Assembly: GCF_000473325.1 (NCBI RefSeq)
Contig: NZ_KI421513.1
Coordinates: 2,551,217 to 2,615,216, forward strand
Reading direction: 5' to 3'
DNA from: Leisingera caerulea DSM 24564
Lineage (GTDB): Bacteria; Pseudomonadota; Alphaproteobacteria; Rhodobacterales; Rhodobacteraceae
DNA: 64,000 bases
Shown: piece by piece, positions 992 to 41,551 of the stretch
Layout of the letters: every line of letters starts with the position of its first letter
Numbering within the stretch: the stretch's first letter is position 1
Notes under the pieces: model-generated
Database searches by the model: none
The model's input: only the letters and a program-made list of their open reading frames with translations
What the model was told of the DNA's origin: nothing
Translations under genes and position numbers: made by a program

Positions 992-1115
992 TCAAAAACA
1001 CCAATTGAGCCGGGACGGAGGAAAACGGGCAGGGGGGTGTACAGCCGGTGTACGGCCGGTGCACGCATGCTGCCTGTCCGAAACAGCGCTTGCCGCCGGG
1101 GCGCCGTGCGATGCT

Positions 1116-1230
1116 TCTTGCTTCCTACGCCAGTATCAACTGGGTCAGGTTCAAAGGGTCGCGCCGCCGGTCCGGGATACCCCGCACCATGACGCCTCTC
1201 AGTCCCTTGGGCGGGACTCCCCTGCGTGCC
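1116..1230 (-). promoter_or_regulatory. TPP riboswitch (THI element) upstream of thiC
   Basis: Read on the minus strand, the leader contains the conserved THI-box pieces in order: a GGGGAGTCCC-like P1/P2 start, CTGAGAGG, then ACCCTTTGAACCTGA, CAGTTGATACTGGCG and TAGGAAGC. This is the classical thiamine pyrophosphate aptamer. It lies about 150 nt before the thiC start codon, as expected for translational or transcriptional control of thiC. The exact ends are approximate. Confidence 0.95.
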
Positions 1231-1295
1231 TATAGGGCTAGGGGAGGGGCGGGGTTCGCGTCAACCGGAATCTTTGTAGATTATTTTTTGGTATT

Positions 1296-24740: not shown

Positions 24741-24815
24741 TGGAGCGGGCGATGAGATTCGAACTCACGACCCTTACCTTGGCAAGGTAATGCTCTACCC
24801 CTGAGCTACGCCCGC
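24741..24815 (-). tRNA. tRNA-Gly (GCC anticodon), copy 1
   Basis: Minus strand: acceptor GCGGGCG/CGCCCGC, anticodon stem TTACC/GGTAA with loop TTGCCAA (anticodon GCC), T arm GTGAG-TTCGAAT-CTCAT, discriminator T and encoded CCA. 75 nt. Identical in sequence to the copies at 24960 and 27593. Confidence 0.97.
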
Positions 24816-24959: not shown

Positions 24960-25034
24960 TGGAGCGGGCGATGAGATTCGAACTCACGACCCTTACCTTG
25001 GCAAGGTAATGCTCTACCCCTGAGCTACGCCCGC
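24960..25034 (-). tRNA. tRNA-Gly (GCC anticodon), copy 2
   Basis: Same 75-nt sequence as copy 1, 219 bp away. The flanks are also related (terminator on one side, GCTGCCAT--GGTGAG on the other), so the pair arose by tandem duplication of a unit larger than the tRNA. Confidence 0.97.
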
Positions 25035-27592: not shown

Positions 27593-27667
27593 TGGAGCGG
27601 GCGATGAGATTCGAACTCACGACCCTTACCTTGGCAAGGTAATGCTCTACCCCTGAGCTACGCCCGC
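27593..27667 (-). tRNA. tRNA-Gly (GCC anticodon), copy 3
   Basis: Third identical 75-nt tRNA-Gly, 2.6 kb from copy 2 and separated from it only by the methyltransferase-restriction-vsr operon. The flanking terminator and the GGGCTGCAAG stretch upstream of the tRNA also match the other units. Confidence 0.97.
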
Positions 27668-38246: not shown

Positions 38247-38365
38247 CACCCCCATCCTCTGAGAGCAGCGCGGCAGCAGCAGGCTTGTGCCTGGCTGCAG
38301 CCGCTTGCCTGCAGCACGCTTCCGGCATGCCGCAAGGGTGCGGGGGCTTTGATGTGATGTCCTGA

Positions 38366-38412
38366 AAAACAAGAAACGGCGGCGCCCAGGGAGGAGGAGG
38401 GGCACCGCCGTT
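38366..38412 (-). ncRNA. CcsR-like small RNA 4, with transcript terminator
   Basis: Minus-strand hairpin with arms 38375-38387 and 38400-38412 (AACGGCGG outer, GCCC inner, one mismatch). The RNA loop reads CUCCUCCUCCCU. It is followed on the minus strand by TCTTGTTTTTC, so it doubles as terminator of the DUF1127-CcsR transcript. This is the usual position of CcsR4 in Rhodobacter. Confidence 0.85.
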
Positions 38413-38420
38413 CTGTCAAA

Positions 38421-38452
38421 CACCGGGGAAAAGGGAGGAGGAGACCCCGGTG
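38421..38452 (-). ncRNA. CcsR-like small RNA 3
   Basis: Minus-strand hairpin CACCGGGG/CCCCGGTG (arms 38421-38428 and 38445-38452) with a loop containing UCCUCCUCCC. Third of four consecutive hairpins that share only the loop motif. Confidence 0.83.
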
Positions 38453-38484
38453 ATTCAAGCCCGGCTTCAAGACCGGTATAGGGT

Positions 38485-38518
38485 GCGGCGGCATCAGGGA
38501 GGAGGAGGATGCCGCCGC
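38485..38518 (-). ncRNA. CcsR-like small RNA 2
   Basis: Minus-strand hairpin with perfect 11-bp stem GCGGCGGCATC/GATGCCGCCGC (38485-38495 and 38508-38518) and the loop CUCCUCCUCCCU. The stem sequence differs from the other three while the loop is constant. Confidence 0.85.
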
Positions 38519-38524
38519 GTAGGA

Positions 38525-38558
38525 CAGGCTCTTCAAAGGGAGGAGGAGGAAGAGCCTG
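38525..38558 (-). ncRNA. CcsR-like small RNA 1
   Basis: Minus-strand hairpin CAGGCTCTT/AAGAGCCTG (38525-38533 and 38550-38558) with a loop containing CCUCCUCCUCCC. It begins 8 nt after the DUF1127 stop codon, so it must be processed from the 3' UTR of that mRNA. Confidence 0.85.
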
Positions 38559-38565
38559 ATCTCTA

Positions 38566-38775
38566 TCAGTTGTTCTCGTAAGCAGCCTGGTAGGCGACGC
38601 GCTTGATTTCGCAGCGGCTCAGCCCCAGGTCCGCCAGCTCGCGGCCCGACAGCGCCGACAGCTCATTGACGGTCTGGCGGTACAGGCGGTAGCGGGTGAA
38701 CTTCACCAGCAGCGCGTTCAGGAACCCGGCCGGGGATGCTACGCTCACCGCGGAGATTTGATGTGCAGCAGCCAT
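38566..38775 (-). CDS. DUF1127 small protein (CcaF1-like)
   Basis: 69-residue basic protein with a DUF1127 domain: RYRLYRQTVNELSALSGRELADLGLSRCEIKRVAYQAAY. In Rhodobacter sphaeroides the homologous arrangement (RSP_6037, later called CcaF1, followed by CcsR1-4) is stress-induced through RpoH-type sigma factors, and the DUF1127 protein binds RNA. The same arrangement is seen here. A candidate promoter lies about 70-95 bp upstream. Confidence 0.92.
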   Translation of the reverse strand: MAAAHQISAVSVASPAGFLNALLVKFTRYRLYRQTVNELSALSGRELADLGLSRCEIKRVAYQAAYENN

Positions 38776-39139
38776 GGTCGTGTTCCTTCATCCAGCCGTT
38801 TCGTCATCTGCGTCTTGCGCCTCAGCGGCGCCGCTTGAGCCATAATTTAGGGATCTCCCCGGGAGTCGCAATCCCGTGCTTCGTCATTGCTGCTATGCAG
38901 CATCTGCATGGGTGACGTATGGGTATGTAACTGGAATATGACAATAATTTCGGCAGCGCGTTGCGCATCTGTATAATTTTGCGGCACCGCGCGGCGGTTT
39001 CTGCATGGCTTCGGGCGGCGCCTGTTGACAGGCCGCGCATCCGGTCTCCGCGGCCCATGTGCGGCAATCGGGCCTGGCGGGTTTCAAGCTCTGCCGCCGC
39101 CGCATATATATGTGCCGGATAACACGCAGGAGAGCAGAC
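38776..39139. promoter_or_regulatory. Intergenic region with promoter of the DUF1127-CcsR transcript
   Basis: 364 bp without a gene between the divergent DUF1127 and mrp genes. On the minus strand TTGCGA (38866-38871), a 16-bp spacer and TAAATT (38844-38849) form a candidate promoter with an expected leader of about 60 nt. Near mrp, ATATATATG at about 39103-39112 may be a -10 region. The sigma class cannot be decided by eye. Confidence 0.45.
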
Positions 39140-40442: not shown

Positions 40443-40587
40443 CCGTTTTTCCGCCTGTTCCCTCTTGCCAGCACGAATCACCCCGTGCTGAAACGCTGAT
40501 AACAGGAATTTCCGGCGCGAGGGGAGGAGGTGATTTGCGAACGTTGCGCGAACATTGGCGGAATCTGCGAGTCGTCTGACGGAATCG

Positions 40588-40636
40588 CGGGAAACTATGG
40601 GAAAAAATTTGCAGCCGCAACTCCCCTCTATATGTA
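40588..40636 (+). promoter_or_regulatory. Candidate mraZ promoter with two MraZ-like boxes
   Basis: CGGGAAACTA and TGGGAAAAAA stand back to back (40588-40607). They are followed by TTGCAG (40609-40614), a 16-bp spacer and TATGTA (40631-40636). The boxes abut the -35, the place from which MraZ represses or activates its own cluster in other bacteria. The transcript would have a leader of about 400 nt. Confidence 0.5.
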
Positions 40637-40958
40637 GTGTTTGCGTTGCATTAACTCACAACAAGTTCCGGAATTTGTCCTGAGTTGGCCACGAATCTGG
40701 GGCGAATCTGCTGATGCACTGTCAAGGCCTCGGCAGGTTCCCGCAAAAAACAGTTGCAGGGCCATCAATTCCCATAGTATCCCTTGTTCATCGGATGAGA
40801 CGAGGGACGGGGCGCCAAACGACCCCAAGCCAAAAACAAAACAAGCAGGTTTCATACAGGCCTTCGCTTTCATCGAACCAAGAGATCCGGCGCGCGAGCG
40901 AGCAGACATCCCCCCAGGTGGCGCGCGCAGTCGGACATCCCGCAAAGCGGGCCAAGGC

Positions 40959-40998
40959 GGCGGGTTGATCAGTGGCAGCAGATCAACCCGCCCCTTTT
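40959..40998 (+). terminator. Terminator-like hairpin in the mraZ leader
   Basis: GGCGGGTTGATC (40959-40970) pairs perfectly with GATCAACCCGCC (40981-40992) around a 10-nt loop and is followed by CCTTTTCATT. It lies only 55 bp before the mraZ start, so it would either end a short leader RNA or attenuate the dcw operon. Apart from this, the two box clusters and the mrp hairpin, the 843-bp gap 40205-41047 shows nothing I can name. Confidence 0.6.
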
Positions 40999-41047
40999 CA
41001 TTCTGGGGGACGGATTAACGCGAGGGACGCGCGAAAAGGACGGGAAA

Positions 41048-41551
41048 TTGGGCCGCAGGTTCAGAGGCGAAAGCCACCACAAGGTGGACAGCAAGGGGCG
41101 GGTGTCAATCCCCGCCTCCTTTCGCCGTGTGCTGGAGGCCGCCGATCCGAACTGGCAGCCCGGCCAGAACCCCGAACTGGTTATCGTCTACGGCGACCAT
41201 CGCCGCAATTTCCTGGAATGCTATACTATAGAGGCAATCGAAGAGGTCGACGCCAAGATCGACCAGCTGCCGCGCGGCTCGATGCAGCGCAAGATGCTGC
41301 AACGGATGTTCCACGGCCAGTCCTTCCCGACCAATGTGGATGAGACCGGCCGCCTGGTGCTGCCCGCCAAGCTGCGCCAGAAGATTGATCTGGAGGTCGA
41401 GGCCTTTTTTATCGCCGCGGGCGACACCTTCCAGATCTGGAAGCCGGAAACCTACGAGGCTGAGGAACTGGCTCAGGCCGAGAAATGGATGGAAGAGCTG
41501 CCCGACGACTTCGATCCGATGGAATTCCTAGATGGCGCCGGGAGCGCTTAA
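41048..41551 (+). CDS. mraZ: Transcriptional regulator MraZ
   Basis: First gene of the dcw cluster; an AbrB-fold DNA-binding protein that controls this cluster. 167 residues starting at a TTG (MGRRFRGESHHKVDSKGRVSIPASFR) with AAGGAC upstream; no ATG fits the family start. Two AbrB-like halves are visible, each with the DxxGR motif (VDSKGRVSIP and VDETGRLVLP). The TTG lies inside CGGGAAATTGGG, which itself looks like the upstream MraZ-like boxes. rsmH begins 3 bp after its stop. Confidence 0.95.
   Translation: MGRRFRGESHHKVDSKGRVSIPASFRRVLEAADPNWQPGQNPELVIVYGDHRRNFLECYTIEAIEEVDAKIDQLPRGSMQRKMLQRMFHGQSFPTNVDETGRLVLPAKLRQKIDLEVEAFFIAAGDTFQIWKPETYEAEELAQAEKWMEELPDDFDPMEFLDGAGSA

Follow-up and report, generated by a model that had tools for sequence, protein, structure and literature searches.

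A CIN1-type locus of Leisingera caerulea with a DUF1127 gene, two predicted CcsR-type RNAs and a putative LsrB/VtlR-type operator box

A DUF1127 gene is followed by four hairpins with a common loop motif

The DNA analysed here, called the window, is a stretch of 64,000 nucleotides from Leisingera caerulea DSM 24564 (genome G000, contig C7, positions 2551217–2615216). Its minus strand contains an ORF of 69 aa at 38566–38775, which encodes a CcaF1-like DUF1127 protein; a Pfam profile search placed the PF06568 domain in it at 52.5 bits (cut-off 23.3). The DUF1127 proteins of the nearest relatives found (L001–L006, mostly Leisingera) are 84–90% identical. Behind the gene and on the same strand lie hairpin 1 (38525–38558, uninterrupted stem of 10 bp), hairpin 2 (38485–38518, 11 bp), hairpin 3 (38421–38452, 8 bp) and hairpin 4 (38374–38413, 14 bp), each with UCCUCCUCCC in the loop. 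The first-pass annotation of this DNA had the hairpins 8 nt after the DUF1127 stop; they do follow it, but at a distance of 7 nt. It had also stated that the stems share no sequence, which was too strong because hairpins 2 and 4 have a CGGCGG 5′ arm in common, while the stems are otherwise variable.

Exactly four copies of the 10-mer TCCTCCTCCC are present in the window, each on the minus strand (38538–38547, 38497–38506, 38433–38442 and 38389–38398). Between hairpins 2 and 3, folding and alignment revealed a small motif-free linker stem (38461–38476, minus strand) of five pairs, one of which is changed on both sides in the genus alignment, and this stem is a possible candidate for a processing region. 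The T-run claimed for the last hairpin was found as TTTCTTGTTTTT directly 3′ of hairpin 4, and the T-rich tail spans 38362–38377 (minus strand). From this tail, hairpin 4 is probably a terminator stem; it was not listed by a consensus terminator scan, which admits only loops of 3–8.

The fold of 213 nt had an energy of −98.2 kcal/mol as compared with −63.0 on average in shuffled sequences (z −8.9), and none of 200 shuffles equalled it. When hairpins with a stem of at least 8 bp and a CCTCC loop were counted in 1,000 dinucleotide shuffles of the array, 956 shuffles had none and 44 had one, against four in the real array. These results confirmed the earlier report of four consecutive minus-strand hairpins with a shared loop motif. 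Apart from the array, no hairpin with the loop CCTCCTCC and a stem of at least 8 bp was present on either strand of the 64 kb. Genome-wide, CCTCCTCCC has 64 sites, of which 60 are outside the array. In this control, counting any enclosing pairs did not discriminate and uninterrupted stems were used instead; a stem of at least 8 bp was then seen at one of the 60 sites, and that site is another CcsR-type unit.

The hairpins are arranged as two two-hairpin units

At gathering thresholds, Rfam gave no match at the hairpin array. The Rfam CcsR1 model (RF02791), which describes one 83-nt RNA with two hairpins, matched the array twice on the minus strand, at 38480–38567 (unit 1, 46.5 bits) and at 38371–38460 (unit 2, 35.3 bits), each time over model positions 1–83. 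Both units thus have the two-hairpin architecture over the full length of the model; as both scored below its gathering cut-off of 65.3 bits, they were not filed as RF02791 members. The ar14 model (RF02344, NfeR1) also stayed below its cut-off at the array (40.5 versus 58.8 bits). The first-pass annotation had proposed a search with a covariance model across relatives; CcsR1 matches were found in 99 of 120 family genomes, and exceeded the cut-off in 7 of the 120 and in none of the 21 genus genomes. One of 14 control genomes had a match, below the cut-off.

The spacing of the hairpins has the same paired order. In the window, the gaps are 6–7 nt inside a pair and 32 nt between the pairs; over the relatives, the median short and long gaps are 6 and 33 nt. 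At least four hairpins were called in 69 of the 81 loci formed by the window and 80 named relatives, and short and long gaps alternate strictly in 51 of these 69; when the gap order was shuffled, this was so in 8.6 loci on average and in 19 at most. Furthermore, genome G111 (locus L082) has four tandem CcsR1 matches and eight hairpins. Because the CcsR1 model holds two hairpins, each match was taken as one RNA, and the two matches, the paired spacing and the arrangement in G111 together indicate that the window contains two predicted CcsR-type RNAs, not four. The order had been described earlier as exactly that of CcsR1-4, which does not hold for two units. Two tandem units occur in all 21 genus genomes, and a third unit, located elsewhere, in G000 only.

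The array is conserved in relatives with covarying stems and nearly fixed loops

At least two CCTCC-loop hairpins stand behind a DUF1127 homolog in 78 of 80 named relatives (79 of 81 loci with the window), which sustains the earlier view of a homologous CIN1/CcsR-type locus. The number of called hairpins per locus ranged from 0 to 14 over the 81 loci, and 386 of the 454 called loops have the exact 9-mer. Fewer than two hairpins were called in two loci, L069 (Amaricoccus) and, with a contig that stops 159 nt past the DUF1127 gene, L076. Within the genus, a DUF1127 homolog precedes the array in all 21 genomes.

RNAalifold on the 21 genus arrays recovered the four hairpins and the linker stem. 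In this structure 98.8% of the cells were paired, and 7 pairs (18 cells) were changed on both sides; none of 500 shuffles was as high in pairing and both-side changes, and slid structures had 0–3 such pairs. The compensatory stem change around a constant loop that had been proposed is therefore present in the genus. Further pair types were not above shuffles, 358 of 500 of which reached the observed number in these arrays. Most stem pairs are invariant, hairpin 3 is the weakest in pairing (95.2%), and the loops are nearly fixed while the stems covary.

Two kinds of unusual arrays were seen among the relatives. L053 and L063 have very long ones, with 14 and 13 called hairpins, mostly in regular pairs, after one DUF1127 gene, and in L068 (Sulfitobacter dubius) four exact CCTCCTCCC motifs are located 277–409 nt upstream of the DUF1127 match and one downstream.

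A conserved box precedes a predicted RpoH-type promoter

Upstream of the DUF1127 gene, on the minus strand, the element TGCAGATGCTGCATAGCAGCAATG at 38885–38908 contains TGCA-N6-GCAT and, from pattern match and conservation, was assigned as a putative LsrB/VtlR-type operator box. It had no part in the first-pass annotation and was added by the present analysis. The same strand has a predicted −35 element, TTGCGA, with the TTG of RpoH-type promoters (38866–38871, from position and alignment with relatives) and a predicted −10 element, CCCTAAAT (38845–38852, from sequence and alignment). By spacing, transcription would start near 38838, which would put the box at about −47 to −70, roughly 60 nt upstream of that start. 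A TTG at −35 follows the box, in 63 of 81 loci in the form of the exact second site TTGTGCANNNGCAGCA; in the window the corresponding half-site near the −35 has four mismatches, which is chance level. The −10 elements of CIN1 loci are such as CCTATCTT and CCCATGTT. A TTG at −35 is reported as common to RpoHI and RpoHII promoters (PMC3441632).

The 24-nt box has a single match within three mismatches in the window and none in 100 shuffles. The pattern of its 22-nt form came from the genus, and the 81 loci in which it was counted include the genus; it was found with at most one mismatch in 60 and at most four in 73 of these loci, while 78 control stretches taken from them had 7–10 mismatches at best. 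TGCA-N6-GCAT is present in 75 of the 81 promoters and in none of the 78 controls. Wider tests were made on 21 further CIN1 loci from the RNA search and by a scan of 80 family genomes. All 21 further loci have TGCR-N6-GCAT, and 19 have the box with at most four mismatches. The scan, at up to three mismatches, gave 67 box sites in 53 genomes, and the reversed pattern gave a single site; 27 of the 80 genomes had no site at this level. All 67 sites were inspected. Each of the 40 sites with 0–2 mismatches has at least two hairpins with a CCTCC loop downstream. Among the 27 sites with three mismatches, 15 precede at least two such hairpins, two (L337 and L351) have a DUF1127 homolog downstream without called hairpins, one is the regulator-sRNA site of G000 described below, and nine (L297, L330, L331, L333, L341, L345, L352, L356 and L362) have neither hairpins nor DUF1127. 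From the outcome at these 67 sites, the box is therefore close to specific for the CIN1-type locus.

The box was also compared with the operators of related bacteria. In the NfeR1 promoter, LsrB is reported from pull-down and gel-shift experiments to have its site, TGCA-N6-GCAT, at −72 to −60 (PMC10746234). The Brucella VtlR motif, taken from PMC12595884, was found as its reverse complement with at most three mismatches in 66 of the 81 promoters and in none of the 78 controls. The Agrobacterium form of the box was seen in only 5 of 81 promoters and in 1 of 78 controls.

An LsrB-type LysR gene adjoins the second box of the genome

The sole other site of G000 within three mismatches of the box is at C7:3393367–3393390, 92 nt behind a LysR gene (C7:3392369–3393271, plus strand) and ahead of an sRNA of SorX/SorY type. 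The LysR gene, the box and the sRNA with its terminator together span C7:3392369–3393524 (L237:503–1658, plus strand), so that an sRNA gene with a TGCA-N6-GCAT-like box lies directly behind the LysR gene. The sRNA scored 57.1 bits with the SorX model (cut-off 46.6) and 55.7 bits with the SorY model, which is under the cut-off of 111. There are four SorX-model matches in G000 in all.

A PDB search and the reverse search with LsrB made this gene a candidate LsrB-type regulator. Its protein scored 247 bits with PDB 9HH1, and the next entry 106 bits; 9HH1 is the LsrB of A. tumefaciens (PMC11975290). When LsrB was the query in G000, the same LysR gene was the best (247 versus 126 bits), the forward direction of this reciprocity covering PDB chains only. 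Over 41 family genomes, this gene scored 212–276 bits with the LsrB query in 38, and other LysR genes at most 132. A single copy was found in 77 of the 80 family genomes; for the genomes of good quality, the count is 73 of 73. A SorX-model match is found behind it, on the same strand and within 600 nt, in 68 of the 77 genomes among the matches listed, and the gap between the LysR gene and the sRNA contains TGCR-N6-GCAT in 25 of 30 loci examined (controls 0/30 and 1/30). Conservation in this gap does not extend to the full 24-nt box: 29 of 30 loci have 5–11 mismatches (controls 7–12), and G000 alone has three.

The DNA-binding domain is identical to LsrB at 49 of 65 positions and the effector part at 64 of 196. 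All four LsrB cysteines are absent from the 30 homologs compared (of 77 LysR loci), C144 and C273 of the effector domain being V and A in each of the 30, and one other cysteine is common to 26 of them. Because the LsrB cysteines are absent, the protein was named LsrB-type and not LsrB. An NCBIfam search gave no specific name for it (best 151 bits, cut-off 288). The neighbourhood of trxB was tried as a route to LsrB and given up, as trxB of G000 lies elsewhere (C7:155579–156484) and has no LysR gene beside it. These sequence comparisons support the view that the gene encodes an LsrB-type regulator with a changed signal. LsrB was reported to appear unique to Rhizobiales, based on a tree with OxyR proteins (PMC11975290), and an LsrB-type gene carried by 77 of the 80 genomes of the family would speak against this; the argument is made with reserve, as the cysteines are absent and trxB is apart.

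Some loci keep the box and the hairpins with no DUF1127 homolog found

Among 30 family loci from the RNA search, a DUF1127 homolog precedes the array in 21 and none was found in nine, with the qualification that a very divergent gene could escape detection. Of these nine, L088, L091, L092, L093 and L100 have mrp and/or uvrD and mraZ as neighbours, like the window, and the box with 0–3 mismatches at most 250 nt from the first hairpin. Similarly, L350 (G048) has the box and the hairpins, and no DUF1127 homolog was found between them. The mrp gene is also kept in L101, where the box has seven mismatches, and in L099, which has a DUF1127 gene with hairpins further along. L096 and L104 have none of these neighbours and 9–10 mismatches to the box. 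Since box and hairpins are kept where no DUF1127 homolog was found, the RNA can apparently outlive the protein gene.

An orphan two-hairpin unit of CcsR type without DUF1127 was found in G000 at C5:466677–466759 (plus strand; L171:2982–3055) with 45.4 bits, and is present in 1 of the 21 genus genomes. Similar noncoding DNA was found by BLAST in seven plasmid records (five of Thioclava, one each of Salipiger and Qingshengfaniella), and the neighbours differ among the four that were inspected. An alignment had suggested that the plasmid-borne orphan units share the CIN1 operator; this was dropped, as the full box has 6–10 mismatches there at best. The half-form TGCR-N6-GCA is kept in 3 of 5 plasmid or orphan loci (L171, L173 and L176), which may have a diverged operator site.

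Comparison with known systems

Cuckoo RNAs, as reportedly described by Reinkensmeier and Giegerich in 2015, are adjacent hairpins with CCUCCUCCC loops and variable stems. The window has such hairpins, and a short DUF1127 gene together with CcsR-like RNAs. The same description of a cuckoo RNA locus, with CCUCCUCCC in each loop and variable stem sequence, is found in PMC3927594, and the CIN1 locus is described as a short DUF1127 gene associated with CcsR-like RNAs (PMC10253847). We therefore regard it as hardly in doubt, from sequence comparison, that the locus is of the CIN1/cuckoo/CcsR type. Like ccaF1-CcsR1-4 of R. sphaeroides, it has a DUF1127 gene followed by two-hairpin RNAs with CCUCCUCCC loops, presumably on one transcript, and a −35 of the TTG type (PMC10253847); unlike it, the window has two units, not four, and they score below the CcsR1 cut-off.

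The ultraconserved CCUCCUCCC loops with variable stems are shared with S. meliloti ar14/NfeR1, which also has upstream a TGCA-N6-GCAT box that is bound by LsrB in S. meliloti (PMC10746234). NfeR1 differs in that it stands alone as an sRNA of three hairpins and has a promoter of the sigma-70 type, whereas the RNAs of the window would be units derived from the 3′ UTR behind a protein gene. The VtlR regulon of Brucella includes three DUF1127 genes and AbcR2, and an LsrB/VtlR-type box ahead of a DUF1127 gene is common to it and the window (PMC12595884); in the window the DUF1127 gene and the loop RNAs would be in one transcription unit, and the regulation is a prediction. The trxB-lsrB/vtlR-abcR region of Rhizobiales has, like the second site of G000, an LsrB-type gene, a TGCA-N6-GCAT-like box and then an sRNA gene (PMC7486931). 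Unlike there, the sRNA of G000 is of SorX/SorY type and not AbcR, trxB is elsewhere, and the LysR protein is without the LsrB cysteines.

The RNA locus is of an already known kind, and the present analysis places it in Leisingera-type bacteria with its unit structure corrected to two RNAs. New are the TGCA-N6-GCAT box at a CIN1 locus, the LsrB-type regulator in Rhodobacterales and the connection to SorX/SorY. In the open-licence literature these three were not found, an earlier mention being possible, and neither CcsR nor RpoHII was met together with LsrB or VtlR.

A proposed CIN1-type stress operon and the alternatives to it

The explanation that we favour, with a probability of about 0.7, is a CIN1-type stress operon with two CcsR-type RNAs, which is expressed from an RpoH-type promoter with an LsrB/VtlR-type activator. 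A single transcript would begin about 60 nt ahead of the DUF1127 gene and encode a small, presumably RNA-binding protein. Cleavage of its 3′ UTR, probably by RNase E and assisted by the DUF1127 protein, would yield two CcsR-type RNAs of about 85–90 nt. The two UCCUCCUCCC loops of each RNA would act as anti-Shine-Dalgarno seeds for GGAGG-rich ribosome-binding sites, and this pairing would silence mRNAs under oxidative or heat stress. The LysR activator, on the box at 38885–38908, would help the RpoH-type core promoter and would also drive the SorX/SorY-type sRNA that follows the activator gene. An anti-Shine-Dalgarno seed and RNase E have been reported for CcsR/CcaF1 (PMC10253847, PMC8625941 and PMC7866481), and anti-Shine-Dalgarno loops for NfeR1 (PMC10746234). 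CcaF1 of R. sphaeroides is described as binding RNA and acting in CcsR maturation (PMC10253847). By analogy with these systems, an anti-Shine-Dalgarno action of the loops is likely, and a stress role of the locus is inferred from the Rhodobacter papers.

The hairpins themselves could be read in two other ways. Four same-loop hairpins behind a DUF1127 gene might be four separate RNAs in one-to-one correspondence with CcsR1-4, but the two-hairpin CcsR1 model matching twice, the strict gap alternation far beyond the shuffles and the eight hairpins of G111 under four tandem matches make this very improbable. A stabilising or terminating 3′ UTR, or a decoy for the DUF1127 protein, without anti-Shine-Dalgarno action would agree with the terminator-like hairpin 4 and with the reported RNA binding and maturation activity of CcaF1 (PMC10253847); it is nevertheless unlikely, because the loop letters are fixed while the stems drift, which is more than a stabiliser needs, and six loci (L088, L091, L092, L093, L100 and L350) keep hairpins and box although no DUF1127 homolog was found between them.

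The control of the operon is less firmly settled. CcsR and SorY/SorX are reported to depend on RpoHI/RpoHII in R. sphaeroides (PMC5036791 and PMC10253847), and by analogy this control may suffice without a LysR protein, so that the box would serve, for example, DNA bending. The box might also be bound by another regulator, as G000 has several further LysR proteins (LsrB has 11 matches with E values no higher than 1e-20), the LsrB-type protein is without the LsrB cysteines, and its neighbour sRNA does not have the full box conserved. Taken together, such readings remain a serious if doubtful prospect. Against them stand the exact fit of the box to the TGCA-N6-GCAT bound by LsrB in Sinorhizobium (PMC10746234), the DNA-binding domain with 49 of 65 positions identical to LsrB, the LysR gene adjoining the sole other box of G000, and TGCR-N6-GCAT in 25 of 30 regulator-sRNA gaps. 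We predict that the LsrB-type regulator controls the operon together with sigma factors of the RpoH type, and we lean towards its control being direct.

With somewhat less assurance, at slightly better than even odds, we propose that an LsrB/VtlR-type regulator of Rhodobacterales without the redox cysteines of LsrB directly switches a small sRNA regulon, made up of the CIN1 operon and the SorX/SorY-type sRNA, and acts through the distal box together with a half-site that overlaps the −35 of RpoH-type promoters, as a branch of one old alphaproteobacterial circuit. If this is true, VtlR-DUF1127, LsrB-NfeR1, LsrB/VtlR-AbcR and CcaF1-CcsR would be branches of one alphaproteobacterial stress circuit, some lineages would have lost the DUF1127 gene and kept the box and the RNAs, and the accounts of DUF1127 and CCUCCUCCC RNAs in Rhizobiales and Rhodobacterales would come under one regulator type. 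For Rhodobacterales, the box offers a concrete and testable candidate for what acts on DUF1127 genes and CcsR RNAs in addition to RpoH.

Possible targets and other features of the window

The full loop complement GGGAGGAGG is found before an ATG at nine sites in G000, compared with two for the reversed control; one of the nine is the complement of hairpin 2, and the sites are partly implausible as starts. ORFs with GGGAGGAGG before ATG were seen in L229, L230 and L235 (contigs C6 and C8 of G000). Their products, read from the letters as a TRAP small permease, a universal-stress-type protein and an antiporter subunit E, are possible targets. A search of G000 for the 16S 3′ end gave no hits. In the region 40500–41100 of the window, upstream of mraZ (41048, plus strand) and thus at the position of UpsM in R. 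sphaeroides, there was no Rfam match up to E 0.5. Elsewhere in the window, a TPP riboswitch above its gathering score lies at 1105–1233 (minus strand), and three tRNA genes of 69.8 bits each are close together on the minus strand at 24744–24815, 24963–25034 and 27596–27667.
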